NCBI RefSeq assembly: GCF_037055275.1
Contig: NZ_CP146343.1
Location: forward strand, 3,134,501-3,198,500
DNA from: Pseudomonas sp. ML2-2023-3
GTDB taxonomy: Bacteria; Pseudomonadota; Gammaproteobacteria; Pseudomonadales; Pseudomonadaceae
Length of the DNA stretch: 64,000 nt
Reading direction: 5' to 3'
Made by a program: the position numbers and the translations under genes. The notes under the pieces were generated by a model that was given only the letters and a program-made list of their open reading frames with translations, made no database searches and was not told where the DNA came from. Below, piece after piece: positions 41,352 through 54,767 of this stretch; within the stretch, counting starts at the first letter, position 1, and each line of letters begins with the position of its first letter.

Positions 41352-42932
41352 TTACTTGCTCATGCTGCCCAGGTTGAACACCTGTTCGAGCATCGGGTTG
41401 AACACGTAGCCCTTGACCGAATCACGCATCGGCAGGGTGTAGCTCTTCTGATAGAGGTAAACGTAGGCGCTGTCGTTGAGCACCACTTTCTGCGCCTGCT
41501 GGTACAGCTCGGTGCGTTTGGCGGTGTCGCTGGTGGTGGCGGCTTCGCGGATCAGGGTATCGACCTGCGGGTTGCTGTAGAACGAACGATTGCCCTGCAG
41601 GCCCTGCATCTTGGAGTCGAACCAGAAGTTCATGAACATGTACGGGTCGGCGAAGTCCGGGCTCCAGGTGCCGACGGCGATGTCGTAGTCGGCCTGACCA
41701 ACGCGCTCACGCAGGGTGGCGTTGGCGGTTTTCTCCAGCTTGAGGTTGATGCCCAGAGGGGCGAGGGCGGCTTGCAGGGTCAGGCCGATCGGCTCCCAGT
41801 TGGCGTCCTTGTCGGAGTACATGTAGCTCAGGTTGGTGATTTTCTTTGGCACCTTGGCCAGGCTGGCCATGGCCGCAGGCATGTCCTGCTTCATGTTGGG
41901 CAGCGAGCTGTCGTAGGCCCACATGCCGTCCGGGATCGGTCCGTTCAGCAGTTCGGCCTTGCCCTTCAGGATGCCTTTGACGATGCCGTTGTAGTCCACG
42001 GCTTCGGTGATTGCACGGCGCGCATCGACGTTGGTCAGGGGGCCTTGCTTGTTGTTCAGGTACAGGTAGGTGACCCGCAGCGACGGGAACTCCTTGACCA
42101 CGACGCCCGGTTTGCTGGCCAGAGAGCCCAGTTGGTCTTCAGGCATGTCTTCGATAATGTCCAGATCACCGCGCTCCAGTTGCAGGCGGCGTACCGAAGG
42201 CTCGGCGATGATCTTGAGCACGACGGTCTTGAGCGCAGGTTTGGCACCGGCGTAATGGGGGTTCGGTTCCATGGTCAGCGACTGGCCTTTCTGCCAGTTG
42301 CTCAGGCGGTAAGGGCCAGAACCTGCGGTGTGGCTGGACAGCCAGGCATTGGCCTCTGCGCCTTTGTTGGCCACCAGCGGATTGACGATCGAGGCACCGT
42401 TGTGGGCCAGTGTGAACAGGAAGGGCGCGAACGGTGTCTTGAGGGTGAAACGCACGGTCTGCGGGTCGATCACCTCCACCACCATGTCTTCCGGGAATGC
42501 ACCGGACGGCCCTTGCTTGAGGGTCATCAGACGGTCGAAGGAAAACTTGACGGCCGCAGCGTCTACGCCCGTGCCGTCATCGAACTTGTTGCCGGGCTTG
42601 AGTTTGAATTCCCAGACCAGATTGTCCGGGGAAACAGTCCAGCTCTCGGCCAGGTCTCCCTGGACTTCGGTGCTGCTCTTGTCGCCGTCGGTCTTGTAGC
42701 CCACCAGCCGCTGGTAAGACGGGTAGGTGATGGTCCAGTCGTTGTTGTCAAACGTCACGGCCGGGTCGAGGGTCTGCGGGTCGGCGGGTTTGCCGATGAC
42801 TAGCGTGTCCTGTGCGGTGGCTGCTGTCGCCGCTTGCCAGGCGCCAAGGCTCAAGGCTGCGCAGAGCAAGCCAGGCAACAGTTTCAGGGTACGGGAAGCG
42901 GTGGAGCGGTTCACGGTCTTGATGAGGGTCAT
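41352..42932 (-). CDS. ddpA: Periplasmic dipeptide-binding protein, DdpA/DppA type
   Basis: A 526-residue family-5 solute-binding protein with a signal peptide ending near AATAATA. Family blocks include QDTLVIGKPADPQTLDPAVT, AGSGPYRLSNWQKG and YDIAVGTWSPDFADPYMFMNFWF. The ATG at 42932 follows AAGGAAACC; a frame start 18 bases earlier is less likely. Its place directly after a D-Ala-D-Ala dipeptidase gene suggests the ligand is that dipeptide or a muropeptide fragment. Confidence 0.88.
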   Translation of the reverse strand: MTLIKTVNRSTASRTLKLLPGLLCAALSLGAWQAATAATAQDTLVIGKPADPQTLDPAVTFDNNDWTITYPSYQRLVGYKTDGDKSSTEVQGDLAESWTVSPDNLVWEFKLKPGNKFDDGTGVDAAAVKFSFDRLMTLKQGPSGAFPEDMVVEVIDPQTVRFTLKTPFAPFLFTLAHNGASIVNPLVANKGAEANAWLSSHTAGSGPYRLSNWQKGQSLTMEPNPHYAGAKPALKTVVLKIIAEPSVRRLQLERGDLDIIEDMPEDQLGSLASKPGVVVKEFPSLRVTYLYLNNKQGPLTNVDARRAITEAVDYNGIVKGILKGKAELLNGPIPDGMWAYDSSLPNMKQDMPAAMASLAKVPKKITNLSYMYSDKDANWEPIGLTLQAALAPLGINLKLEKTANATLRERVGQADYDIAVGTWSPDFADPYMFMNFWFDSKMQGLQGNRSFYSNPQVDTLIREAATTSDTAKRTELYQQAQKVVLNDSAYVYLYQKSYTLPMRDSVKGYVFNPMLEQVFNLGSMSK

Positions 42933-43082
42933 GCCGGTTTCCTTCAACATTCGATGTCTGGAAGTAGGTTTATTTTTGGAATCTATAACCGGGCAGTAGC
43001 AGATGAAGCATGTTTGAAACGTTTTTTTTGTTGTCGTAAAGCGGTGTCACTGGCATCGAAACTCTATGGTTTCGTGGCCGGA

Positions 43083-43634
43083 TTACTCGTGGAGCAAGGG
43101 GTAATCGTCTGCGTTGGGCAGCTCGAAATGCCACCACTCCGTAGGGATCGCCTGGAAGCCCGCGCCCAGCATGATGCCCAGTAACAGCAGGCGATTGCGC
43201 TGCACGTTGACCGGCAGGTCGGGGTAGAACTGGTGGGACTTGTCTTCCATCGCGTCGAACGCGGTGCCCATGTCCAGCGGCTGGCCGTTGTCGTCCACAA
43301 GGGTCAGGTCCACGGCAACACCGCGACTGTGGTGAGAGCCCAGATGCGGATCGCGCACGTAGTCGCCGTTGGGCAATGCCTCCCATAGCAAAAACTGGGC
43401 ATAGGGCGGGCGATAGGCGTCATAGATGAGCAGGCTGTAGCCCGCCAGATTCGCCAGCTGGCTGGCCTTGCGCAAACAGACGGCTGCATCGCGGTGCAAC
43501 TGGCAACGGGCCGTCGGGTAGATGATTTTGCCGGCCAGGTTGTCGGCAGTGGCGTAGATCATTTCGATCTGCACCTGGTACTGCTCGACATCGATTTCAA
43601 CGAGCGGGCTTGGGTTGGCAACGCATTGGTTCAC
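43083..43634 (-). CDS. ddpX: D-alanyl-D-alanine dipeptidase (VanX/DdpX, peptidase M15D)
   Basis: A 183-residue zinc dipeptidase. The metal motif SHHSRGVAVD gives H102 and D109, matching VanX H116 and D123. EWWHF gives the catalytic E166 and third ligand H169, and YRPP contains the substrate-site R75. A GTG start at 43634 is chosen because GGAG precedes it and it gives the usual family length; the frame runs open to 43874 inside the regulator gene. No export signal, so it cleaves imported D-Ala-D-Ala in the cytoplasm. Gene order ddpX-A-B-C-D-F equals that of E. coli. Confidence 0.88.
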   Translation of the reverse strand: MNQCVANPSPLVEIDVEQYQVQIEMIYATADNLAGKIIYPTARCQLHRDAAVCLRKASQLANLAGYSLLIYDAYRPPYAQFLLWEALPNGDYVRDPHLGSHHSRGVAVDLTLVDDNGQPLDMGTAFDAMEDKSHQFYPDLPVNVQRNRLLLLGIMLGAGFQAIPTEWWHFELPNADDYPLLHE

Positions 43635-43652
43635 ACAAACACTCCATTTGTG

Positions 43653-43660
43653 ATTTGTTT
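43653..43660. promoter_or_regulatory. ATTTGTTT element ahead of ddpX
   Basis: One copy of an octamer also present twice upstream of the RpiR gene (44571-44578 and 44600-44607). All three are in the same orientation. Possible regulator half-sites, weakly supported because the octamer is AT-rich and short. Confidence 0.3.
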
Positions 43661-43672
43661 GAGGCGATCGGC

Positions 43673-44533
43673 TCAGCCTTCGAACTGGCCGAAGGCTTTT
43701 TGCAACTGACGATTTTTTGCCAGGCGTACATCCAGATGCTCGCCGTATTTTTCTGCCACGGCCGACACCATCAGGTTCAGCAGGCATGCCAGGGGAGCCG
43801 GGGAATCCCAGAACTGCCCGACGTCGGTCTTGATCTGCAGCAGGTCCAGCGGGTAATCCCGGGCCCAGGGGCATTGCAGGTCGGTGATCAGGGCCAGGGG
43901 CAAATCGTTGTCGCTGGCCGCGTCGCAGAAGGTCTGGGTCACGCTGGAGTACGCCCGGAAGTCGGCAATGATTGCGTACGGATTGGCGAAACCGGAGTTC
44001 AGGGTTTCGGCGTAGATGCCCGACAGGCCGTCAACGTAGTAGACCTTGGGGCGGATGTACTCAAGGTGACTGTGAAAAGCAGTCAGGATGCCGCGGGTGG
44101 ACTGGATGCCGAGGATAAACACGGCATCGGCTTCGTGAATGCGTTGCACGATCCGGGCAAAGGTTTCGCTGCGGGCCAGTTCATAGACCTGCTGGATGGC
44201 CTCGATTTCACGGTGCAGGGAACGGTCCAGTGCATCATCGCAGCTGTTTTCGGCGCGGAAGGCGCCGATACGGTCGGTGATCAACCACGAGGTAGGGGCT
44301 TCACCGCGCAGGCTCTGCTTGACCTCATCCAGGTTCTGATAACCCAGGGAACGCAGGAAACGGCCCACGGAAATGCCCGTGGTAGAGGTTTGCTGCGCAA
44401 TGCTGTCAGCGGACTCGAAGGGCAACTGTTGCGGATTGCCCAACAAGTAACTGGCAATACGCTTGCCGGTGGGTGTCAGGTTGGAGAACTCTTGTTCCAG
44501 CAACTGAAGAAAGCTGTTTTTTTCCAAGGACAT
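43673..44533 (-). CDS. RpiR/MurR-family regulator of the ddp operon
   Basis: A 286-residue regulator. An HTH_6 domain (about 1-75: SNLTPTGKRIASYLLGNP, DSIAQQTSTTGISVGRFLRSLGYQNLDEVKQSLR) is followed by a SIS sugar-phosphate isomerase-like domain (ADAVFILGIQSTRGILTAF, YVDGLSGIYAETL). RpiR proteins sense phosphosugars, for example MurNAc-6-phosphate for MurR, so control of a peptidoglycan-peptide uptake operon makes sense. It is transcribed ahead of ddpX on the same strand, 38 bases away. Confidence 0.87.
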   Translation of the reverse strand: MSLEKNSFLQLLEQEFSNLTPTGKRIASYLLGNPQQLPFESADSIAQQTSTTGISVGRFLRSLGYQNLDEVKQSLRGEAPTSWLITDRIGAFRAENSCDDALDRSLHREIEAIQQVYELARSETFARIVQRIHEADAVFILGIQSTRGILTAFHSHLEYIRPKVYYVDGLSGIYAETLNSGFANPYAIIADFRAYSSVTQTFCDAASDNDLPLALITDLQCPWARDYPLDLLQIKTDVGQFWDSPAPLACLLNLMVSAVAEKYGEHLDVRLAKNRQLQKAFGQFEG

Positions 44534-44570
44534 AAGAGCGCGCCGACACTGTGGTTGTTATTGGTATGTC

Positions 44571-44607
44571 ATTTGTTTGCTTCGTGTTAGCAACATAACA
44601 TTTGTTT
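44571..44607. promoter_or_regulatory. Direct ATTTGTTT repeats upstream of the RpiR gene
   Basis: Octamers at 44571-44578 and 44600-44607, 29 bases apart, about 38 and 67 bases upstream of the start codon at 44533. The region is AT-rich compared with its surroundings, consistent with a promoter and regulator sites. Confidence 0.35.
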
Positions 44608-44668
44608 TCACGGCAACACAACGCCTTTTCTGAAGCGTGTGCAGTGAAGTGTTTTTTGCGGGTATCAC

Positions 44669-44685
44669 GAGCGCCTTGGGCGCTC
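44669..44685. repeat. GAGCGCC/GGGCGCTC hairpin after the acetyltransferase gene
   Basis: Short GC palindrome 11 bases beyond the 3' end of the minus-strand gene at 44696. A near copy with a similar CACAGA/GACAGA flank is at 61115-61133. No T-run on the minus strand, so it is not a classical terminator. Confidence 0.45.
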
Positions 44686-44695
44686 GCACAGATAC

Positions 44696-45193
44696 TCAGA
44701 CAGCCATGACCATCTCATGCCAGGCCATGCCGCCATGTTCGGAGGGGGATGGCTGAACGTACTGATAACCCAGCCGGGTGTAGAGCCCGACGTGCTGTTC
44801 TTTGCACATCAGGTGGATGGTTTTTTTTCCGAGGCTGCGCATCTGCTCGACAAACTCGTGCATCAGCAGCGTTGAAAAGCCCTTGCCCTGATGTTCAGGG
44901 GACACCACCACGGACATGATCACCACATTGGGCGCCGCTGGGTCGTGCCCGATCAGTTCCTTGAAGGCCTCATCCGACATGACCACGTCGTGGGCACAGC
45001 CGCTATTGATGAAACCCACCACCTGGCTGGCCTGCTCAAGGATCAGAAACCCCTGGGGATACTGGGCGATCCGTGTACGAATCTTTTCCAGAGTGGCGGC
45101 TTCATCGCCTTCATAGGCTGAAATTTCGATCTGGTAGCAGCGCTCCGCGTCCTGTGGGGTCGCGTGTCTGAATAGGGGGGGTGGTAGAACCAT
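44696..45193 (-). CDS. GNAT-family N-acetyltransferase
   Basis: A 165-residue acetyltransferase of the arylalkylamine (AANAT-like) type. The acetyl-CoA site is visible in VIMSVVVSPEHQGKGFSTLLMHEF (motif A, Q-x-x-G-x-G/S as HQGKGFS). The C-terminal GLYTRLGYQYV is motif B. The acceptor is unknown. It lies 160 bases upstream of the RpiR gene on the same strand, with a promoter-like AT-rich gap between, so it is probably independent. Confidence 0.85.
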   Translation of the reverse strand: MVLPPPLFRHATPQDAERCYQIEISAYEGDEAATLEKIRTRIAQYPQGFLILEQASQVVGFINSGCAHDVVMSDEAFKELIGHDPAAPNVVIMSVVVSPEHQGKGFSTLLMHEFVEQMRSLGKKTIHLMCKEQHVGLYTRLGYQYVQPSPSEHGGMAWHEMVMAV

Positions 45194-45456
45194 GGGCTGC
45201 TCTCTGGGGATGGGGTGAGTTTTGGAGGGGGTGTTCAGCCAGCTATCAGGCGACCGGGCTTGCTGAGATTGGATAGTTACCGTTGGTGCTCGCTTGGCAT
45301 TGGCCCAGTTTACGAACTCCCTTCACTAAAAGCTGTGTGTTTATTTCAGGCGCGGATTCCGCGATCTGACGTGGGTGTGTGGCTGCGACACAGAATGTCG
45401 CATGCCTGATGGAGGATGTGTCCCAACGCCACAATCAATGTGCCCGGAGTGTCCTC

Positions 45457-45600
45457 ATGAAAGAATTAGTCTGTTTTGCAATCGGTGTAGTAGTTGGCGT
45501 CGTGATGATGAAAAAAAGCCAGGCAATCAACGAGTTGAAGAAGGAGCTGGATCGGGAAAAATGTCGTAACAGCACAGCTTTCAGTGCCGGTCAGACATGA
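45457..45600 (+). CDS. Small single-span membrane protein, 47 residues
   Basis: MKELVCFAIGVVVGVVMMKK forms one hydrophobic span ending in lysines. It is followed by a charged helix (INELKKELDREKCRN) and a short tail. A GGAG site precedes the ATG. I recognise no family. It ends about 20 bases before an inverted repeat (45620-45653) and 128 bases before the WYL regulator gene, on the same strand, so it may be the first member of that locus or stand alone. Confidence 0.5.
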   Translation: MKELVCFAIGVVVGVVMMKKSQAINELKKELDREKCRNSTAFSAGQT

Positions 45601-45619
45601 GGCAGCAGGCAATCAAAAA

Positions 45620-45653
45620 TGGCTTTTTAATATCATATAGTGCTAAAAAGCCA
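45620..45653. promoter_or_regulatory. Inverted repeat TGGCTTTTTA / TAAAAAGCCA
   Basis: Perfect 10-base arms at 45620-45629 and 45644-45653 with a 14-base AT-rich loop, between the small membrane protein and the WYL gene. It could act as a terminator for the first or as an operator/promoter for the second. Confidence 0.5.
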
Positions 45654-45663
45654 CTATTGGAAT

Positions 45664-45691
45664 GTTCGCCAGCGGCTTGATGCTGGCGAAC
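45664..45691. promoter_or_regulatory. Inverted repeat GTTCGCCAGC / GCTGGCGAAC
   Basis: Perfect 10-base arms at 45664-45673 and 45682-45691 with an 8-base loop. It ends 36 bases before the WYL start codon. Either a leader RNA hairpin or the dyad recognised by the WYL protein in autoregulation. Confidence 0.5.
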
Positions 45692-45727
45692 CATCAAGAT
45701 CAAGGCCGATACGAGTTAACTGCCCTC

Positions 45728-46777
45728 ATGTCAGATCCCAAAGACCGGTTGTTCAGACACCTGGCCCTTTTGCGCCACATCCCTCGTGCGCCCAAAAGCA
45801 TTTCGACGAGTGAGCTGCAAAAAAAGCTCAAAGCTGAAGAGTTCAACATTGATTCGCGGACCTTGCAGCGTGACCTGAGTGGCCGCCTTGCGCTGGATTT
45901 CCCTTTGCTGTGTGACGAGAGTCGGCGCCCTTATCTGTGGAGCTTCCCGAAAGACACTCCGCGTTTTGATTTCCCCGCGCTGGATACGCCAACTGCCTTG
46001 GCTTTTGCACTCGCGCAAAGCCATCTGGGCAAGTTGCTGCCACCGAGTGTGCTTGAGCTATTGGCCCCCCATTTCGACCTGGCGCAGAGGCAGCTTCAGG
46101 GGCTGGAGCACAATAAATTGGTGCACTGGCTCAACTGTGTACGTGCCGTGCCCAACGGCAAGGCACTGCAGCCTGCTGAAGTGCAAGCGAGTATCTGGTC
46201 TCCGGTGGCCACCGCATTGCTGGAAGCGCGCCAACTGGAGATGGTCTACCTGAGTCGCAGCAAAGGTGAGAACAAGAACCTACGCGTTCATCCAGCAGGG
46301 ATGGTTTCGCGCCATTGCGTGAGCTATCTGATTGGTACTGTTGAAGGTTATTCGGATTATCGCCAGTTCGCCCTGCATCGAATCAAGCATGCAGTCTGTC
46401 TGGATGCGCCAGTCCGCGAGCAGGCCGATTTCGATATAGATCAGTACGTCCATAGCGGGGGGTTCAACAATCCTGGCCCCGTCGAGTTCGTGGATCTGGT
46501 TGCTGATGTCTCGCCTCAAATTGCCTGGCTCTTGAGCGAAACGCCCCTCGGGTCGCAACAGACACTGAAACAATTGCCAGACAGTGACTGGCAACGCCTG
46601 AATGCCCGCGTGCCAAGCGACCAGGAGACACTCTGGTGGGTATTTGGTGTGGGAGAGAGCCTGAGGCTGTATGAACCGCAAGGCTGGGTGGATGAAATCC
46701 TGGTCAGATTTAACAAAATCCAAGGGTTGTACACACGACCCAAACTGCATTGCGCAAATGCCTGCGAGGAGGCTTGA
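45728..46777 (+). CDS. WYL-domain transcriptional regulator
   Basis: A 349-residue regulator. A DeoR-like winged helix (about 10-65) contains ISTSELQKKLKAEEFNIDSRTLQRDL. The WYL domain (about 145-220) contains EARQLEMVYLSRSKGENKNLRVHPAGMVSRHCVSYLIGTVEGY, with SYL at the namesake position. A C-terminal WCX extension (about 255-335) ends VRFNKIQGLY. WYL proteins bind nucleic-acid or nucleotide ligands and often sit beside phage-defence genes. The stop lies one base before the ATG of the next gene, so it is the first gene of the operon. Two inverted repeats precede it. Confidence 0.87.
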   Translation: MSDPKDRLFRHLALLRHIPRAPKSISTSELQKKLKAEEFNIDSRTLQRDLSGRLALDFPLLCDESRRPYLWSFPKDTPRFDFPALDTPTALAFALAQSHLGKLLPPSVLELLAPHFDLAQRQLQGLEHNKLVHWLNCVRAVPNGKALQPAEVQASIWSPVATALLEARQLEMVYLSRSKGENKNLRVHPAGMVSRHCVSYLIGTVEGYSDYRQFALHRIKHAVCLDAPVREQADFDIDQYVHSGGFNNPGPVEFVDLVADVSPQIAWLLSETPLGSQQTLKQLPDSDWQRLNARVPSDQETLWWVFGVGESLRLYEPQGWVDEILVRFNKIQGLYTRPKLHCANACEEA

Positions 46778-46778
46778 T

Positions 46779-48335
46779 ATGTTCGACGACCAGGACAGCC
46801 CTGAAAAAAGCAACAGAGATGAAATTGCACGAGATGGCATCAACACGACAATCTCGCTTTCTACCAGTGAGGTTGTCAGCCGTTTCGGCAGTGCTAACGC
46901 TGAATACCTCAAAGGTTACAGTGGCGTTGATAACGAAACTCAGCAGAAGTTTGCCAAGGGCCTGGCGGGTATTGCCAAGCACAAGGTCAATGCCGACCCC
47001 AGGTATGCCGAGCAAAACATCAAGCAGCAGGCAGGCTACAGCGCCGAAGTTGCGGCGACGAGTCGCGACAATGCTGAATCCATTATCAACGGCTCAAAAA
47101 TCCGTGTTTCACGCAGTGACGACTTGCCGGAGTACGGCAAGAATCACACTGTTGTGGATCGGGTACAGCTTCTGGATGGGGAAATCATTCAGGGCACACA
47201 AACACAGATGAAATTTGTCGGTAAGCGCGACGAGTTGTTCGCCAAAATTGCAAAGGAGGATGGAGAGTTCACTCGCTATCGCGGTGTGACGCTTGAGCTG
47301 CCTTCTGAACAATACGTGGGTGCTGAGTCGTTTTGTCGTGACAAGGCCCAGCAACTGCGGGATCAGGCTGCCAAGGTCGAGCAACTGGGCAAAGACAATG
47401 TTGCCAAAAAGCTGCGCCACGAAGCAGACAATTATGAGCAGCTTGCGGATCACCTGAGTGACAGTGGCCTGACCACAGATCAGGCAATTTTTTACCGTAC
47501 ACACCCGAAGATGGCGACGGCGATGGACATTGCTCGCACCAGCCATCGTGCCGGGCTGCAGGGCGCCCAATACGGAGCGGCAATTGGCGGCAGCATTTCG
47601 CTGCTGCAAAACCTGTTGGCGACTGCGCAGGGCCAGAAAGAGATGGGTGAGGCGGCCCAGAACGTGGCCGTAGATACGCTCAAGGCAGGGGCGCTTGGTT
47701 ATGGCACGGCGTTTGTCGGGGCAGCGATCAAAGGCAGCCTTCAGCAGTCGGGCAACTCTACGCTGCGCTCGCTCGCGGGTACCTCGGCTCCAGCCCTGGC
47801 GGTCAATATCTGTTTGTCTCTGGCCAGTTCCATCAACCGCTATGTCTGCGGCGAGATCAGCGAGGCGCAATTGCTGAGCGAAGTGGGCGAGAAGGGGGCA
47901 GGCATGCTCTCCAGCAGCATGATGGCCGCTCTTGGGCAATTGGCCATTCCTGTGCCCTTTGTCGGTGCTGCTATTGGGGCAATGATCGGCTACACCCTGT
48001 CATCGCTGTTTTACCAAAGTGCATTGGACGCTGCGCGTGGCGCAGAGCTTTCCCGTGAGCAGTTGGCACGCACCCGATTCATTGAAGCCGCAGCCCGTGA
48101 CCGTATCGCTCAAGAGCAAGCACAACTGGATGATTTTACCCGCCGTGAAATCCCCCAACTGCAGCGAGAAACCCTGCATCTGTTTTCTATTGTGAATGCG
48201 CCGGGAGCCAACAGTGCTGATTGTTTTGCAGCGGCTATCAATCAATACGCCACCTTGCTGGGTAAACAATTGCAGTTCCATTCAATCGATGAGTTCAACG
48301 ATTTCATGAGCAGTGACAGTCCGCTGTCGCTGTGA
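46779..48335 (+). CDS. Unassigned 518-residue protein with glycine-rich hydrophobic hairpins
   Basis: I do not recognise this protein. Residues 1-180 are polar. Residues 183-230 look like a charged coiled coil (FCRDKAQQLRDQAAKVEQLG, KKLRHEADNYEQLADHL). Three Gly/Ala-rich hydrophobic blocks follow at about 258-282, 301-320 (KAGALGYGTAFVGAAIKG) and 374-411 (LAIPVPFVGAAIGAMIGYTL). A helical tail of about 100 residues closes it. There is no signal peptide. The layout resembles a protein that inserts a glycine-zipper hairpin into a membrane, as pore-formers or membrane remodellers do. A GAGGAGG site overlaps the end of the WYL gene. Function unknown. Confidence 0.85.
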   Translation: MFDDQDSPEKSNRDEIARDGINTTISLSTSEVVSRFGSANAEYLKGYSGVDNETQQKFAKGLAGIAKHKVNADPRYAEQNIKQQAGYSAEVAATSRDNAESIINGSKIRVSRSDDLPEYGKNHTVVDRVQLLDGEIIQGTQTQMKFVGKRDELFAKIAKEDGEFTRYRGVTLELPSEQYVGAESFCRDKAQQLRDQAAKVEQLGKDNVAKKLRHEADNYEQLADHLSDSGLTTDQAIFYRTHPKMATAMDIARTSHRAGLQGAQYGAAIGGSISLLQNLLATAQGQKEMGEAAQNVAVDTLKAGALGYGTAFVGAAIKGSLQQSGNSTLRSLAGTSAPALAVNICLSLASSINRYVCGEISEAQLLSEVGEKGAGMLSSSMMAALGQLAIPVPFVGAAIGAMIGYTLSSLFYQSALDAARGAELSREQLARTRFIEAAARDRIAQEQAQLDDFTRREIPQLQRETLHLFSIVNAPGANSADCFAAAINQYATLLGKQLQFHSIDEFNDFMSSDSPLSL

Positions 48336-48383
48336 TTTTTCAGTTTGCCTCGATGCTCAAAAACATAAAAGGACGATACGTTC

Positions 48384-49007
48384 ATGCTAATCAAGCTCCT
48401 GTCCGCTGCGGACAAACACCATCTGGTTGCCCTGGCGAAACTGATGGCTTTAGCCGACAAACCACTGCTCTGGGATGGGCAAACACCTGATGAGTTCACC
48501 GTTAATACCAACTTAAACAACTTGTCCATTCAAAAGGGTGAGTCGGAAGTTGAAATTATCAGGGAGCTGGAACGCTCAGCCGGCGATCCTCCGACGATAT
48601 CGGCCACGGTCTCTTCGTCCATGTTTACGTCCATGTTTTCATCTTCATCTGGAACGTCGACAGTGCCATCGTCCGTGGATGTTGAATCACGGCTTATTGA
48701 TGTTCTGAAATCGTTTCCGCTGATCAAAATCAAAAGACCAGAAGGCCGTGTGCAAGCCGCGATTGTGGTGCTGAAAGAGTTGCTCAAGGACAAGAAGTTC
48801 GAGCTGCCGGCAACGCCGAAGGTCGTGTTGTTCGAGTTGCTGTTGATTGCTTTGCGCGATGGGAATATCTCCAATATCGAGTGGGCTCTGCTCAAGGAGT
48901 TTCAGCAACACCACCAACTGGATGACTTCATTTTCGATGATTTGCTGGAGCGTGCCGAGACGCTCAACCGGGAAGTCAACAAAACCATTTCCATTATTCT
49001 TGAGTAA
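48384..49007 (+). CDS. TerB-like protein, 207 residues
   Basis: The last 65 residues (FELLLIALRDGNISNIEWAL, LKEFQQHHQLDDFIFDDLLERAETL) look like the TerB helical fold, where an acidic D-G-x-I-S turn recurs. The first 35 residues (LSAADKHHLVALAKLMALADKPLLWDG) could be a first helical pair of the same fold. Between them lies a Ser/Thr-rich, low-complexity linker at about 70-95. TerB domains occur in tellurite-resistance and membrane-stress complexes. The gene follows the 518-residue protein by 48 bases and precedes the next gene by 11, so all three are one operon. Confidence 0.75.
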   Translation: MLIKLLSAADKHHLVALAKLMALADKPLLWDGQTPDEFTVNTNLNNLSIQKGESEVEIIRELERSAGDPPTISATVSSSMFTSMFSSSSGTSTVPSSVDVESRLIDVLKSFPLIKIKRPEGRVQAAIVVLKELLKDKKFELPATPKVVLFELLLIALRDGNISNIEWALLKEFQQHHQLDDFIFDDLLERAETLNREVNKTISIILE

Positions 49008-49018
49008 GGAGCAAGACC

Positions 49019-50047
49019 ATGCCTATCCCCTTGATTATTGGTGGTGTTGCCGCCGCTGCCGCGTTGTATGGTGCAACCAAAGGCGTGAGTGGTGCGATGG
49101 ACCACAGTAACGCCAAAGACGTCAATAATGACGCCGCTGCTCTGGTCAATTCAGCCAATCAGAAAGTTGAAAAACAGCGTCAGGCTACCAACACTACGCT
49201 GGAAGATTATGGTCAGCGCAAATTACGTGCTTTCAACGGTGTGATTGTCGAGTTCATTGAAACATTCGAGCGTCTGAAAAACGTCGAACTGTCCCAGAAC
49301 CCTGAACTGGACAAACTCACGGCAGGGGATTTTTCCAACAAGGCGCTTGCCGGTTTGCGTCAAGATTATCAAGCGCTCAAAGACGCCGGTCTTGGATTGG
49401 GGACAGGAGTGGGTGGCGGTGCCGCACTGGCGTTTGGCGCCTATAACGGCACGATGCTGTTGGCGACCGCCAGCACGGGTACAGCCATCTCATCGCTCAG
49501 CGGCGTTGCAGCCACCAACGCCACATTGGCCTGGCTGGGTGGTGGCTCCCTGGCTGCCGGTGGATGGGGTATGGCAGGGGGCATGATGGTACTGGGCGGT
49601 ATCGTCGCCGGTCCTGCACTGGCAATTTTTGGTCATGTACTGGGCAACAAGGGTGAAGAAGCCCTTAACATCGCCAATAGCAATATGGAACAGGCCGTAA
49701 CCCTCCGTGATCAAGCCGACTTGATGGCAGGTAAACTGCGAGCGATCGAGCAAGTTACTTCACTGGCGAACAGCACTTTCTCGACGACCAGTTCACAGCT
49801 GCGTCGCAGCGTGGGTGAATTGAAGAAAGTGATCGACAACCACGGTGTTGATTACCCGACATTCTCGGTTGAAAGCAAGGGCGTGGTGTTCCGCTCGGTC
49901 AAGCTGGTACAACTGCTCAAAGCCATGATCGATACTGCGATTCTGGATAAAGACGGCAATTTGATCCTGGCCACGCAAAAGCGCATCGAAGACGTTGCAG
50001 CCGTTGCCAGTGGACAAAAAGAAACCCTGGATACACCGGCCGCATGA
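49019..50047 (+). CDS. Unassigned 342-residue glycine-zipper membrane protein
   Basis: It starts with a hydrophobic stretch (IIGGVAAAAALYGATKG). A helical region follows (ANQKVEKQRQATNTTLEDYG). A long Gly/Ala-rich hydrophobic centre spans about 115-200, including GLGLGTGVGGGAALAFGAYN and LAWLGGGSLAAGGWGMAGGM, then VLGGIVAGPALAIFG. The C-terminal 140 residues are helical and polar. It looks like a two-helix glycine-zipper hairpin held between soluble coiled coils. Ribosome site AAGGAGC precedes the ATG. No enzyme motif. Last gene of the WYL operon; function unknown. Confidence 0.82.
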   Translation: MPIPLIIGGVAAAAALYGATKGVSGAMDHSNAKDVNNDAAALVNSANQKVEKQRQATNTTLEDYGQRKLRAFNGVIVEFIETFERLKNVELSQNPELDKLTAGDFSNKALAGLRQDYQALKDAGLGLGTGVGGGAALAFGAYNGTMLLATASTGTAISSLSGVAATNATLAWLGGGSLAAGGWGMAGGMMVLGGIVAGPALAIFGHVLGNKGEEALNIANSNMEQAVTLRDQADLMAGKLRAIEQVTSLANSTFSTTSSQLRRSVGELKKVIDNHGVDYPTFSVESKGVVFRSVKLVQLLKAMIDTAILDKDGNLILATQKRIEDVAAVASGQKETLDTPAA

Positions 50048-50143
50048 CAAGCAGTTGCCCGCGCACTGTGCGGGCAACTGTGCAAAGGCCAACAGGTTTG
50101 GGGCCATCCTGCGCGATGAAACTTCACAACCAAGAGTCTGCCC

Positions 50144-50449
50144 ATGTCCACTTCAGTCTTCCCTTGTACCCAATGCGGTTTGTGCTGCCAGCATGTGCAC
50201 ATGGCCGCTGAAACCCGGTTTCTGGATCGGGGCGACGGTACATGCAGGCATTACGATGCCGGGCGCAAGGGCTGCAGCATTTACAACGAACGCCCGGACA
50301 TTTGCCGTGTGGACCTGCAATACGCGATCCATTACGCCAAACAGTTTACCTGGGAGTCTTTTGTTGAAATGAACCTGCACGTGTGTGGTGTTCTACAGGC
50401 GAAAGAGGAGCAGGCGGCTCTGCAGCGCATTAAAGTACGGTCTGTTTAG
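50144..50449 (+). CDS. YkgJ-family cysteine-cluster protein
   Basis: A 101-residue protein with CTQCGLCC at the N-terminus and further cysteines (CRHYD, GCSIYNERPDICR, and HVCG). This is the CxxCxxCC pattern of the YkgJ family, thought to bind zinc or an iron-sulfur cluster. It is 97 bases after the glycine-zipper gene on the same strand. Whether it belongs to that operon is unclear, since YkgJ genes also occur alone. Confidence 0.82.
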   Translation: MSTSVFPCTQCGLCCQHVHMAAETRFLDRGDGTCRHYDAGRKGCSIYNERPDICRVDLQYAIHYAKQFTWESFVEMNLHVCGVLQAKEEQAALQRIKVRSV

Positions 50450-50653
50450 GGCTAGCCATTTCTGGCCCTGTACTCCCGGCAGGGAGCACAAGTATTTGGG
50501 GTGATGCACAGTACAACTCAAGTTCTGCTAGCGCCGCGTGCAAGACTTAAAGATTTGGCTGCGAGTACTGGAGCCCGCAGTCTCCCCCCCCCCGAAAGCC
50601 ATTCCAACCAATGGAAATTCCCGGCTATCGGGGGTGAAACCTGTCGCGGTGGA

Positions 50654-51844
50654 CTACACCAGTACGCCAATCACCGGCACGATCAGCAAGGTGCTGATTG
50701 CCATCGACAAGACATTGCCGATATAGGAGTGCATGTAACCGGGCACCCGCCGGGCGATGGCGCACGCCAGGGGCGGAGCGATCAAGGCGCCGAGCACTGC
50801 GCTGGCAATCATCACCATCGGGCTGGCGCCGTAGGTGAGCACCGCCGCAGGCACAACGGAAACCAGCGGCACGTACGTGGGATACCAGCCACGTTTTCGC
50901 CATTCCCCACGCCACACAATGACGCCCACCAATGAGGTCAGCGCCTGCGCAGCGACCATCTGCAACAGCACGCCTGAACCATAGGCGGGGCTGAGCGGGT
51001 TCAAGGTGAAGGCCAGTAAAACCCCCGCCAGCATGCCCAGGCTGGCCCACTCGTTGCCATAAAACGGCGCCTCTGAAAAATCAGCCAGCACACGGCGTGC
51101 TATCCAGACCACTCCGTAGTCCGGCGTATTGGCGGGCGTTGCAGGCGCAGTTGGCGGTTTTTGCTCGTGACGGGGTGTCACCAGCGCTGGCAGCGCCCGG
51201 CACAGGCCAAAGGCAATCACGCTCCCCAGTGCCATGCCCAGCACATTGCCGATGACCACGGGCAAGCCCAAGGGCAGGCACACGTAGTTGACGATCAACA
51301 GGCACGATGGCGTGACGAGCAGGGCGCCGAGGATTGCTCCGTTGAGGGTGACTTTCCAGCCGCCGCCAAACAGCAGCACCATCGCTGCCGGCAAAGACAC
51401 AAAGGCGGCGAAGGTGGGCTGCCAGGTGTCAGCCGTCAGAGTCCAGCCCCACAGCGCATTGCTGAGCAACAACCCCAGCAATGAACTGGTCACCAGCCAC
51501 GGCCATAAGCCGGTGCCATAGCTGATGCTGAACCCTTGCCAGGTTTGGGCGTAGCGACTGGCCCAGTACCCCAGGGCGCCACCCAGCAACAAGCCCAGCG
51601 AGGCCAGTTCGTGTTTGTAAAACGCGACTTCGCTGATATCGCCCAACACCCAGCGCAGCCAGGCCAGGGGGGAGGGCATGCTCGACATCATGTCGCTGTA
51701 GGCGGGCCAATACACCGTGCCAGCGCTGGAGTACGTCACGGCCACCCAGGCCGTCACTGCGCCAACCATCAGCACGGTGCCGACCAGCAGGATCAGAAAA
51801 CGGGCAGCGGGCCCGCGGGTTTCTCTGTCGGAAAAGATCTGCAT
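50654..51844 (-). CDS. Polytopic membrane protein with internal duplication
   Basis: A 396-residue protein with many hydrophobic helices. Its two halves are related: LRWVLGDISEVAFYKHELASLGLLLGGALG in the first and ARRVLADFSEAPFYGNEWASLGMLAGVLLA in the second. Each continues into PAAMVLLFGGG or PAAVLTYGASP and then an IGNVLGMALG or IGNVLSMAIS block. This suggests a transporter with two inverted or parallel repeats. I do not recognise the family. It starts 14 bases after the stop of a nitrilase-superfamily remnant, so it was once the second gene of an operon with that hydrolase. The upstream in-frame extension to 51910 lies inside the remnant. Confidence 0.72.
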   Translation of the reverse strand: MQIFSDRETRGPAARFLILLVGTVLMVGAVTAWVAVTYSSAGTVYWPAYSDMMSSMPSPLAWLRWVLGDISEVAFYKHELASLGLLLGGALGYWASRYAQTWQGFSISYGTGLWPWLVTSSLLGLLLSNALWGWTLTADTWQPTFAAFVSLPAAMVLLFGGGWKVTLNGAILGALLVTPSCLLIVNYVCLPLGLPVVIGNVLGMALGSVIAFGLCRALPALVTPRHEQKPPTAPATPANTPDYGVVWIARRVLADFSEAPFYGNEWASLGMLAGVLLAFTLNPLSPAYGSGVLLQMVAAQALTSLVGVIVWRGEWRKRGWYPTYVPLVSVVPAAVLTYGASPMVMIASAVLGALIAPPLACAIARRVPGYMHSYIGNVLSMAISTLLIVPVIGVLV

Positions 51845-51857
51845 GATGTTCACCCGC

Positions 51858-52121
51858 TCAACGCGGCAAGCGCGGGTGATGGCAATAGCCGAGCAGCTCG
51901 TCATACACATCGGTACGACGGTCGCGTAGCAGGTCGTTCAGATTGTTCCAGATCGGTGCGCTGCGGGCGGTCGAGAGGTCGATGTCAGCGTAGAGAATGG
52001 TCTGCTCGTCGGCCGATGCAATTTTGCCGATGGGCCAGCCATTGGTTCCGGCAATCAGCGAACAGCCCAGGTAGCGCGCATCCTGTTCCTTGCCAATGCG
52101 GTCGGCCGCGGCAATAAACAG
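51858..52121 (-). pseudogene. 3' remnant of a nitrilase-superfamily (carbon-nitrogen hydrolase) gene
   Basis: The minus strand encodes the C-terminal 87 or so residues of a carbon-nitrogen hydrolase. It contains FIAAADRIGKEQDARYLGCS, LIAGTNGWPIGKIASADEQT and LYADIDLSTARSAPIWNNLN, then a stop at 51858-51860. The catalytic Glu-Lys-Cys part is missing. Upstream, from 52119, the sequence becomes that of the duplicated lipoprotein gene (identity with 53180 onward). No start codon is available, so the gene is dead. Its former operon partner is the membrane protein that follows. Confidence 0.82.
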
Positions 52122-52864
52122 TCCCGTCCATCAGGCATTTTGAAAGGTTTGAATTGAGGGGGAGTTACACAGAGTTCCTCAATGTCGCGTCCCCAATTGC
52201 CCTTGCATGGTTTCCATCCTCTGATCGTTTTTATCCAGTAGCGATCAAAATACGGCAGCTCTTCTTTCGCCTCCGTGAGCACCAACTTCACAGTCTTGCC
52301 CGCTAACTGATCGCGCAGTAACGCTCCGCCCGCCAGGCTTTTTTGCACGACGCCATTCGTGTCGAGTGCCCGGCACTGCAAGATTTTCCTGATAAATCGT
52401 TTTGAGCCCACTGTGCGGAAAAACCACTGGCACTGGCCCTGAAAGACCAGCGGCCCGGATGCGGGAAAAGGGCGGAGCGTTTCTGTTGGTTCATCAAGAA
52501 TGGACAAACCGGCCCTTTGCAGACTCATGTCCAGCTCACGTTTACCCCACTGACCTTCGATATGCAGCACCACGTTTGTCAAAACCATTGAACAACCCCT
52601 GGTTGTATCCGTCAGCGGCAGCTTGAACTCAACCGGGCGCGCGCCTATGGATTGCCCATTTTGGATACGGTTTTTACTGGAGCATGAATCGCCGGAGTTC
52701 GAAGCGTAATACGCCACTGGACTAATGGTGAAGTTTTCAGGTATCTCGGCTTGAAAGGTAAAACTCTCGGTCTGCGCCATTGAACAGCCCGAAACTACAA
52801 GTGCCATTGCACTCGCAAACAAAACCCGCAGGAACAGAGGAGACATATGTCGTTCGCTCATCAT
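52055..52864 (-). CDS. Lipoprotein, copy 1, with chimeric C-terminus (probable T6SS immunity-like)
   Basis: A 269-residue lipoprotein with lipobox VVSGCS near residue 27. It matches copy 2 (53152-53925) without gaps up to residue 248 (PDGRDC), with about 28 differences, all in the first 180 residues. After that the frame runs out of phase into the nitrilase remnant and adds LLPRPTALARNRMRATWAVR, replacing the native ending TVYPNCTE and its last cysteine. Six or more cysteines suggest disulfides in the periplasm. Position after adaptor sequence of a type VI island suggests an immunity protein, but no effector is present. Confidence 0.7.
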   Translation of the reverse strand: MMSERHMSPLFLRVLFASAMALVVSGCSMAQTESFTFQAEIPENFTISPVAYYASNSGDSCSSKNRIQNGQSIGARPVEFKLPLTDTTRGCSMVLTNVVLHIEGQWGKRELDMSLQRAGLSILDEPTETLRPFPASGPLVFQGQCQWFFRTVGSKRFIRKILQCRALDTNGVVQKSLAGGALLRDQLAGKTVKLVLTEAKEELPYFDRYWIKTIRGWKPCKGNWGRDIEELCVTPPQFKPFKMPDGRDCLLPRPTALARNRMRATWAVR

Positions 52865-53139
52865 GTTGATTGCTCTCCTGACCAGAACTTCACTTCACTT
52901 AAAAGGCGCTCGAAGTGAAACTGCGGAGCTTTGTAGGCAACTGACAACCAACCTCTCAACAAGGTTGACTCAGTTTTATTGAATGTGTTGATGACCAAAA
53001 AGTGCAGTTGTACATGGGTAGACCACCTCGACGGGCTAACTTGTGAGTGATGTTCTGCTGGCCAAACACTTAAACTTTCTAATGTTTTTCCGCTAAAAGC
53101 TGGATTGTCCCCATCTTCCATGGATTTATACGAATTCAT
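52861..53139 (-). pseudogene. Remnant of a DUF4123 adaptor gene (C-terminal end)
   Basis: A 92-residue frame whose last 65 residues follow the C-terminus of the complete DUF4123 protein encoded at 53922-54767: QLHFLVINTF against QLHFLIINTL, and FHFERLLSEVKFWSGEQST against VHFERLLNEVKFWSGEQSA. The first 27 residues are unrelated and the DUF4123 domain is absent. It keeps the 4-base overlap with the lipoprotein gene, as in the intact copy. It may still be translated from an AAGG site. Confidence 0.72.
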
Positions 53140-53151
53140 GCCTTGATATCC

Positions 53152-53925
53152 TTATTCGGTGCAGTTGGGGTATACGGTGCAGTCACGTCCATCAGGCATT
53201 TTGAAAGGTTTGAATTGAGGGGGAGTTACACAGAGTTCCTCAATGTCGCGTCCCCAATTGCCCTTGCATGGTTTCCATCCTCTGATCGTTTTTATCCAGT
53301 AGCGATCAAAATACGGCAGCTCTTCTTTCGCCTCCGTGAGCACCAACTTCACAGTCTTGCCCGCTAACTGATCGCGCAGTAACGCTTCGCCCGCCAGGCT
53401 TTTTTGCACGACGCCATTCGCGTCGAGCGCACGGCACTCCAAGATTTTTACGATGTAACGGTATGGACCCATCGTGCGGAAAAACCATTGGCACTGACCC
53501 TGAAAGACCAGCGGTCCGGATGTGGGGAAAGGGCGAAGGTTTTCTGTTGGCTCATCACGAATGGAAATACCGGCCCTTTGCAGACTCATGTCCAGTTCAC
53601 GAGTGCCCCACTGACCTCTGATATGCAGCACCACGTTTGTCAAAACCATTGAACAACCCTTGGTTGTATCCGTCAGCGGCAGCTTGAACTCAACCGGGCG
53701 CGTTTCTATGGATTGCCCGCTTTGGATACGGTTTTTACTGGAACATGAATCGCCGGAGTTCGATGCGTAATACGCCACTGGACTAATGGTGAAGTTTTCA
53801 GGCATCTCGGCTTGAAAGGTAAAATGTTCTGGTTGTGCCAATGAACAGCCCGAAACGACAAAGGCCATTGCATTCACAAACAAGACCCGCAGGAACCTGG
53901 GAGACATATCTCGTTCGTTCATCAT
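53152..53925 (-). CDS. Lipoprotein, copy 2 (complete; probable T6SS immunity-like)
   Basis: A 257-residue protein with signal peptide and lipobox VVSGCS. The beta-rich mature part begins FTFQAEMPENFTISPVAYYA and contains cysteine pairs (GDSCSSKN, KGCSMV, GQCQWFF, LECRAL, KPCKGN, EELCV, and DCTVYPNC). The start overlaps the DUF4123 stop by 4 bases. In vgrG-adaptor islands the usual order is vgrG, adaptor, effector, immunity. Here a lipoprotein directly follows the adaptor and no effector gene lies between. I know no family for it. Confidence 0.75.
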   Translation of the reverse strand: MMNERDMSPRFLRVLFVNAMAFVVSGCSLAQPEHFTFQAEMPENFTISPVAYYASNSGDSCSSKNRIQSGQSIETRPVEFKLPLTDTTKGCSMVLTNVVLHIRGQWGTRELDMSLQRAGISIRDEPTENLRPFPTSGPLVFQGQCQWFFRTMGPYRYIVKILECRALDANGVVQKSLAGEALLRDQLAGKTVKLVLTEAKEELPYFDRYWIKTIRGWKPCKGNWGRDIEELCVTPPQFKPFKMPDGRDCTVYPNCTE

Positions 53926-54767
53926 GCTGATTGCTCTCCTGACCAGAACTTCACTTCATTCAAAAGGCGCTCGAAGTGAACCTGCGGGTCTTCGTCGGCA
54001 TGTGGCAGCCAGTTGCTCAACAAGGGTGGCTTGAGTGTATTGATGATCAAAAAGTGCAGTTGCTCAGGGGTGGACCAGCCCCATTGCCGAGCCTGGGAGA
54101 GTTGTTCTGCGAGCCAGGTACTTGGGTCCTGGCGCTGGCTGAGTCGCATCAGCTCGTCGCTGTGTTCTGCCCACAGATACCGGTAGATATTGGAATGAAG
54201 CATCGCCATCGTCTGGCTCGCGGGCACTGGGACGTTCAGCCACGCCGGGTCAGCAGGTACCGGATGCATTCCGGGAGCAGGATTGTTAACGACTGCCCAC
54301 TGTGAACCCTGCCAAAAACACACACTGATCGCAGGCCCCAGGTATTCGGGGCGGGCCTCTTCAGGGAGATGCCCCAAGGCACGGGTAAGGGCTCGATTAT
54401 CGTGGAAACGGTACAGCGCCTGATGGGGTCGAGTGCCGGTAATCACGCGTTCGCGCCAGTGCCGGGTCAGCGCAGGCAGGTCATCTTTGCCAATACTGGC
54501 AAGCCAGCCCCAATTACGTTCAGGCACCTCAAGCAGCGCTTTGATGTGTTCGTTATCGGGACTGTTGATGAGGAAGATGAAGGGCCCCGCATCAGCGAGG
54601 TCTGCGAGCGGAGTCTCGCTGTACACCCTGCAGTATTGCTCCAGGCCGTGGTTTTTCAGCAGGGCCTGGCGGGCAGCACGCTGGCCTTCAGAGTCCAGAA
54701 TCAAGCACAGCGAGTGGCCGAGCGTTAGCTGTTCTGCCATCCATTGCCGCACAGAGGCAATCTTCAT
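53922..54767 (-). CDS. DUF4123 (Tap/TEC) type VI effector adaptor
   Basis: A 281-residue protein. The DUF4123 domain occupies about residues 15-140: LCLILDSEG, DAGPFIFLI, NWGWLASI, then RHWRERVITGTRPHQALYRFHDNRAL, the usual R-x-x-x-RFYDPRVL-type region. Such proteins load effectors onto VgrG. The start overlaps the vgrG stop as ATGA. The C-terminal 65 residues recur in the remnant at 52861-53139. Confidence 0.85.
   Translation of the reverse strand: MKIASVRQWMAEQLTLGHSLCLILDSEGQRAARQALLKNHGLEQYCRVYSETPLADLADAGPFIFLINSPDNEHIKALLEVPERNWGWLASIGKDDLPALTRHWRERVITGTRPHQALYRFHDNRALTRALGHLPEEARPEYLGPAISVCFWQGSQWAVVNNPAPGMHPVPADPAWLNVPVPASQTMAMLHSNIYRYLWAEHSDELMRLSQRQDPSTWLAEQLSQARQWGWSTPEQLHFLIINTLKPPLLSNWLPHADEDPQVHFERLLNEVKFWSGEQSA

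Follow-up and report, generated by a model that had tools for sequence, protein, structure and literature searches.

In a 64,000-nucleotide stretch of DNA from Pseudomonas sp. ML2-2023-3 (contig NZ_CP146343.1, positions 3,134,501 to 3,198,500; hereafter the window), we analysed a block of genes at positions 45385-50449. Our favoured explanation, to which we give somewhat more credence than doubt, is that this block constitutes a mobile immune cassette built on a WYL-regulated, membrane-tethered nuclease. Two of its proteins match the models of PDC-M09, a candidate listed in PADLOC, and are called M09A and M09B below. The immune reading is based on this match, the co-occurrence of the genes in other genomes, a nuclease-type motif in M09B, the exchange of its N-terminal domain, the sporadic presence of the family, a block shared between loci, neighbouring defence genes and relatives on plasmid records. 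Both the nuclease fold and the defence role are predictions. An earlier examination of the letters alone (the sequence-only reading) had noticed four genes here and proposed an undescribed operon acting on or sensing membranes. The unit is larger and contains at least six genes, with one for a 47-residue protein and one for a CxxCxxCC protein in addition to the four.

Conservation and distribution of the gene block

The four genes first noted are open reading frames on the + strand separated by 1, 48 and 11 bases, exactly as reported. Searches of a protein database at E ≤ 0.001 returned at least 446 matches for M09B and 165 for the TerB-like protein encoded downstream of it, the query itself being included in both numbers, and at least 6923 for M09A. 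For M09B and M09A these numbers refer to the best 7995 and 7999 candidates scored, respectively. With so many matches the four frames are not chance products; among the closest relatives found, many carry a Pseudomonas annotation. M09B, the TerB-like protein and M09A score over the cut-off of no Pfam family and match no NCBIfam family. In contrast, M09A and M09B match the PADLOC models PDC-M09A (E 3.1e-28) and PDC-M09B (E 9.3e-16), so that the window holds the proteins of both models, adjacent in one operon. The pair, taken as undescribed in the sequence-only reading, is thus already listed as an unvalidated candidate, which consists of models for A and B and carries no description. The name 'PDC-M09' was not found in a literature search to which supplementary files were external, and PDCM09 and PDC M09 were absent among the matches listed. 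In passages that do not name M09, PMC12988326 presents PDCs in general as putative systems found by 'guilt-by-embedding' and mostly not validated, with validation pending for most PDCs in the core set. Our analysis adds to PDC-M09 the WYL regulator, the TerB-like, YkgJ-type and small membrane partners, the nuclease motif and a predicted operator.

The sequence-only reading would have been undermined if the genes did not occur together elsewhere; they do. Out of 254 M09A relatives in genome contigs we took the best 80 and dropped a duplicate (L041), which left 79 loci. Partners were counted with iterated profiles, and distances were measured from M09A. M09B lies within 4 kb in 77 of the 79 loci, the match being weak or short in L065 and L087. 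Within 4 kb, 50 loci have the CxxCxxCC protein; 40 have the TerB-like protein at up to 3.5 kb, and 38 a WYL regulator at up to 7 kb. None of these four profiles matched in the 18 stretches of 12 kb, drawn from 13 of these genomes, that served as controls. Gene order is not fixed although content is kept, since five distant loci (L061, L063, L082, L091 and L072) show the order CxxCxxCC - M09A - M09B.

The family is sporadic. M09A is present in one copy in the 5.4-Mb genome of the window. The PDC-M09A model matches in 9 of 194 genomes, and an alignment search with a threshold of E ≤ 0.001 recovers M09A in 27 of 398 genomes of the genus, including 15 with E under 1e-60; the window's own genome is included in each of these counts. 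A contig scan extends the relatives to Pseudomonas, Clostridium, Campylobacter and a cyanobacterium, and no DNA match to the Enterobacter version was obtained in E. coli. Eight plasmid records carry M09A, phage records yielded no match, and viral contigs gave 5 partial matches. The PDC-M09A model also matches in Sulfolobus acidocaldarius, and the family may therefore reach archaea.

Nucleotide comparison revealed a block common to the window and two other loci, L014 and L015. It starts at 45385-45386, ends at 50414-50415 and aligns in pieces; beyond 45385-50415, no further match to the DNA of either locus was detected at E ≤ 1e-8 within positions 42001-53000. Among 76 genomes, the right-hand flanking gene is present in 12 (E ≤ 1e-60) and the left-hand one in 26 (E ≤ 1e-40), the window's own genome being counted in both. 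Six other genomes have both flanking genes, never close together, and no empty site was found, so that insertion is argued from the shared block only.

Proteins encoded near M09A at 21 loci matched 39 PADLOC families at E ≤ 1e-10 (141 proteins scanned of 143 chosen), whereas proteins of the 18 control stretches matched 7 (again 141 of 143), a ratio that overstates the gain because one protein can match many PADLOC families. The control families include DndA/SspA, a match which we take to be a desulfurase. The 25 neighbour families shown include IetA, ZacA/B/C, JukA, HEC-05 and WYL. When 10 neighbours were rescanned singly, 4 matched: ZacA, ZacB and ZacC, which stand in a row beside L015, and a helicase beside L020. 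Together with the PDC-M09A and PDC-M09B matches, these data support a regulated, probably membrane-associated, mobile module that is a plausible defence device, in partial agreement with the sequence-only reading.

The predicted nuclease domain of M09B and its replacement

No enzyme motif had been recognized in these proteins from the letters alone. M09B nevertheless carries a glutamate, an aspartate and a QxK on an alpha-beta core, and we predict that its N-terminal domain is a PD-(D/E)XK nuclease. The pattern E ... D ... QxK is that of PD-(D/E)XK nucleases, and Mrr uses QxK. In the AlphaFold2 model of M09B, calculated from 79 sequences with a mean predicted local distance difference test score (pLDDT) of 81.6, the core comprises H74-103, E108-112, E128-132, E142-144, H150-158 and E171-174 (H, helix; E, strand). 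This alpha-beta-beta-beta-alpha-beta order is that of the PD-(D/E)XK core; the score drops below 50 in the hydrophobic region 381-416. The motif consists of G86, E90, D127 and Q143-x-K145, and E90, D127, Q143 and K145 are all located on this core. E90, D127 and [QE]xK occur together in 63 of 71 M09B proteins of at least 400 residues, the window's included, with Q in all 63. Over the 71 sequences the most conserved charged residues are E90 (0.92), K145 (0.90) and D127 (0.89), and Q143 stands at 0.83. The motif was not found in the other 8 (L069, L070, L076, L078, L079, L080, L086 and L088), which come from groups placed in the Bacillota.

Fifteen divergent M09B N-termini, down to 16% identity to the first, were also aligned; this sample is not independent, as its members had mostly been seen beforehand to carry QxK and those lacking it were left out. 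The only invariant columns are M1, G58, E62, N70, Q110 and K112, which correspond to the G-x3-E and QxK of a PD-(D/E)XK nuclease. The D column is not invariant: L200-L202 have E there, with D adjacent. When compared by hhalign with Mrr_cat, two sets of divergent N-termini had D and QxK in register, and the second set scored better than 200 of 200 column-shuffled controls, though with a match probability of only 1.75%. Both D and QxK are present in the Mrr sequences compared. Matches to known PD-(D/E)XK members are weak, by structure as by profile, and no profile match is significant. A search of solved-structure sequences with query A8 returned four matches at E 0.061 or worse, none named nuclease, and a Pfam scan of M09B at E ≤ 1 returned SAM_2 and Chap-C alone, both under cut-off. 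In the protein database search some M09B relatives bear the name PF26373.

The C-terminal membrane half of M09B is retained when the N-terminal part is replaced, its constant part starting at about residue 330. In L050 and L055, the partner of M09A matches positions 338-523 and 332-525 of the M09B profile, respectively, and begins with an LRAT domain instead of the nuclease domain (E 1.3e-16 and 1.1e-21). We extended the comparison to 20 regions around M09A relatives, 18 from the genus of the window and 2 from one other genome. L187 and L206 share the architecture of the window. In eight regions of the same genus (L192-L199), M09A and the CxxCxxCC gene lie about 1.7 kb apart and no M09B is detected by profile. 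The middle gene was read in four of them (L192, L193, L197 and L199) and encodes a different protein of 542-580 residues containing a stretch, DHV...N...NKSK, that by eye resembles HNH. Pfam recognized no nuclease in the four proteins scanned, and a solved-structure sequence search with the L199 partner gave three weak matches, the best of which (0.0084) aligns 50 residues with a VasX-type toxin. L190, L191 and L205 show a short piece resembling the C-terminus of M09B only, L203 has only the C-terminal part of M09B, L200-L202 combine M09A with an M09B carrying QSK and have no CxxCxxCC gene, and L188, L189 and L204 have M09A and M09B amid other company. Beside M09A genes with a short partner we observed a type III restriction-like enzyme (L191, 7495-10518) and a protein kinase (L190, 3476-5101).

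These exchanges raise a broader idea, which we advance tentatively and hold to be short of probable: M09A and the C-terminal half of M09B could be a common membrane base that receives interchangeable effectors, the CxxCxxCC protein acting as a trigger that responds to metal or redox state and the WYL protein as repressor. The effectors would be PD-(D/E)XK domains mostly, LRAT acyltransferase-like domains in some loci and an HNH-like membrane protein in a Pseudomonas subtype, and the whole would be a previously unrecognised class of immune platform. If this were true, bacteria could swap the target, DNA or lipid, at the entry site. The membrane half resembles Tim17/22/23 weakly in three separate searches, none significant, and its Gly-rich composition could explain the likeness. 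In solved-structure sequence searches, query A1 gave one weak TIM22 match, query A2 22 matches at E 0.15 or worse and query A3 no match.

Regulator, upstream palindrome and partner proteins

The WYL regulator proposed at the outset is borne out, as the first of the four genes scores 48.1 bits with Pfam WYL (cut-off 21.8) and is also over the cut-off for WCX. The left edge of the shared block coincides with a 17-bp palindrome, GCGACACAGAATGTCGC, which occurs as a single exact copy in the 5.4-Mb genome and is likely the operator of this regulator, a predicted role. A relaxed form, RCGACR-N5-YGTCGY, was chosen after near matches had been seen in the scored loci, and was searched from 600 bp upstream of the start of the first operon gene to 30 bp into that gene. 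It is present in 22 of 38 loci, hand-picked among those with an operon start and upstream DNA, many of them related, and 16 have no site in this zone. As the palindrome was first noticed in four of these loci (the window, L014, L015 and L018), a fairer count is 18 of the 34 others. The upstream zones, 23.8 kb in all, contain 25 sites, and 660 kb of other DNA contain 12, a 58-fold difference in density. In L194 (5878-8043, - strand), WYL and M09A are read in one frame of 721 residues, a possible gene fusion.

For the third gene, the TerB-like assignment of the window protein (P0003) is weak by itself, with 12.6 bits for Pfam TerB (PF05099) against a cut-off of 24.4, but its relative in the same slot of L044 passes at 31.7 bits. 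Two tandem TerB-like genes separate M09B from M09A in L034 (8736-9989), and L043 and L052 also have two. In L014 (6823-9990) the TerB-like gene is split by about 2.4 kb containing two frames, probably an insertion element.

The gene of the putative metal-binding CxxCxxCC protein lies just outside the coordinates first noted. The cysteines are nearly invariant, and 53 of 55 family sequences, among which the window's gene is counted twice, carry the motif. In 16 genomes with a locus, a search for this protein gave a single match, inside the fetched locus, in 13 and none in 3; at that threshold it goes with the system and is not a common bystander. A literature search for YkgJ with phage defense returned nothing beyond a title on genome editing. 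The 47-residue protein has no Pfam match; with its single hydrophobic helix it is probably a small membrane subunit. Homologues are encoded in 3 of the 8 loci looked at (L014, L015 and L018), L013 has a DNA match as well, and a cluster of six loci was obtained for this protein. A sigma-70 promoter scan found none, and a terminator scan gave 7 hits versus 5.9 expected. Neither L014 nor L015 showed the two further inverted repeats of the window (45614-45659 and 45664-45691), and L018 has a 10-bp repeat resembling the former.

Table 1. Positions of the genes, protein parts and DNA elements of the block in the window.
Feature	Position	Strand	Basis or remark
Palindrome GCGACACAGAATGTCGC, 17 bp	45385-45401		Left edge of block shared between loci; likely WYL operator
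47-residue protein, one hydrophobic helix	45457-45600	+	Hydropathy peak 1.8; DNA alignment
WYL-WCX regulator gene	45728-46777	+	Open reading frame
M09B gene	46779-48335	+	Open reading frame
Predicted nuclease core of M09B, residues 74-175	46998-47303	+	Secondary structure and placement of E90/D127/Q143/K145
C-terminal membrane half of M09B, residues 240-518	47496-48332	+	Retained when N-terminal part is replaced
Gene of TerB-like helical protein with Ser/Thr-rich linker	48384-49007	+	Open reading frame
M09A gene	49019-50047	+	Open reading frame
Inverted repeat, 14-bp, near-perfect	50052-50080		Between M09A and YkgJ-type gene; without T run, not a clear terminator
CxxCxxCC (YkgJ-type) putative metal-binding protein, 101 residues	50144-50449	+	Pfam PF03692, 32.4 bits (cut-off 23)

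Proposed function, alternatives and genomic surroundings

Hydropathy confirmed the Gly/Ala hydrophobic stretches first seen in both M09B (residues 331-357 and 374-412) and M09A (1-24, 123-141, 146-165 and 177-210). The two proteins might thus form a pore or leak that permeabilises the infected cell in an abortive infection, the N-terminal domain of M09B serving as a sensor or latch. We consider this unlikely. In its favour, M09A, in which no enzyme motif was noticed, anchors the family, and its invariant columns (T153, G154, G162, A164-W172, G174-G176 and others) are mostly in the hydrophobic segment; the LRAT domain that replaces the nuclease domain would also suit a membrane-directed effector. 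However, the near-invariant, catalytic-type residues of M09B are hard to explain for a latch. Moreover, Foldseek found no match for M09A at E ≤ 0.001 and no pore-forming fold came to light, although confidence in the hydrophobic part of the M09A model is low: helices 7-83 and 212-275 are predicted, with a mean pLDDT of 68.0 and less than 50 in segment 150-209. A solved-structure sequence search with P0004 gave three SecY matches at E 0.34 or worse. The best evidence points to a membrane-anchored nuclease effector, and not to the pore or membrane sensor of the sequence-only reading.

Two other functions have to be weighed. The CxxCxxCC protein as a metal binder, the TerB-like protein and a WYL protein as stress regulator would fit a membrane complex responding to metal, tellurite or envelope stress and foreign to immunity. 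The patchy presence, the mobile block and the swapping of effector domains are at odds with such a role, as are ZacABC at one locus and the PADLOC listing, and we regard it as improbable. The nuclease might also exclude plasmids, conjugation or natural DNA uptake rather than phages, as its membrane placement would suit any entering DNA and relatives are found on plasmids and in no phage record. Nothing observed argues against this last alternative directly, no search of the neighbour genes for conjugation or competence functions having been made. The PADLOC neighbours belong to known or candidate phage-defence systems, and we hold it to be quite improbable, the least likely of the three.

In the favoured explanation of a membrane-tethered immune nuclease, M09B would be a PD-(D/E)XK-type enzyme whose Gly-rich C-terminal half anchors it in the inner membrane, with M09A as its partner, its long cytoplasmic helices surrounding a hydrophobic hairpin. 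The TerB-like and CxxCxxCC proteins would join them as further subunits, and the CxxCxxCC protein might serve as a switch sensitive to metal or redox state. The WYL protein would act on the palindrome to repress the operon. During infection, the complex at the membrane would meet DNA at or near entry and cut it, whether incoming or host. If this is right, PDC-M09, an orphan computational candidate, would come with its genes listed, catalytic residues named in its effector, a predicted operator for its regulator and a class of mechanism. Descriptions of membrane-tethered nucleases that encounter DNA as it enters have only begun to appear (SNIPE, 2026). A second family, modular and unrelated to SNIPE, would show that guarding the entry point is a common strategy, and the exchange of effectors could be used to investigate what is sensed by the shared membrane base.

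Among known systems, BREX and CBASS include WYL-regulated defence operons with BrxR or CapW. The likeness is a WYL regulator beside candidate defence genes and an upstream inverted-repeat operator; the operator and the target genes differ, and the operator is here a predicted one. With Mrr-type nucleases (PF04471), M09B shares the motif order, D then QxK, in register for the divergent sets as described above; it gives no significant profile match to them, and its predicted nuclease domain is fused to a membrane domain. SNIPE is similar in outline only, as a nuclease tied to the inner membrane (PMC13190303). SNIPE is a single protein that has a transmembrane helix close to its N terminus, a DUF4041 and a GIY-YIG domain; its membrane-tethered scheme works, and tethering helps to prevent self-damage. 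The block described here is instead a cassette of several genes, in which the motif is of the PD-(D/E)XK type and the Gly-rich membrane half is C-terminal. GIY-YIG and DUF4041 were not found in M09B by the Pfam scan at E ≤ 1, so that SNIPE is a comparison of working principle, not of kinship.

The genes flanking the block were annotated with Pfam, which named no defence island among them; no PADLOC scan was made of these flanks. To the left are a solute-binding protein, a peptidase, an RpiR-type regulator and an acetyltransferase, and to the right three unnamed genes, a DUF4123 gene, a VgrG-like gene and a LacI-type regulator. On the - strand at 52055-56839, the VgrG-like protein (Phage_GPD, gp5 C-terminal, base_V), the DUF4123 gene and unnamed small genes probably form a type VI secretion effector cluster.

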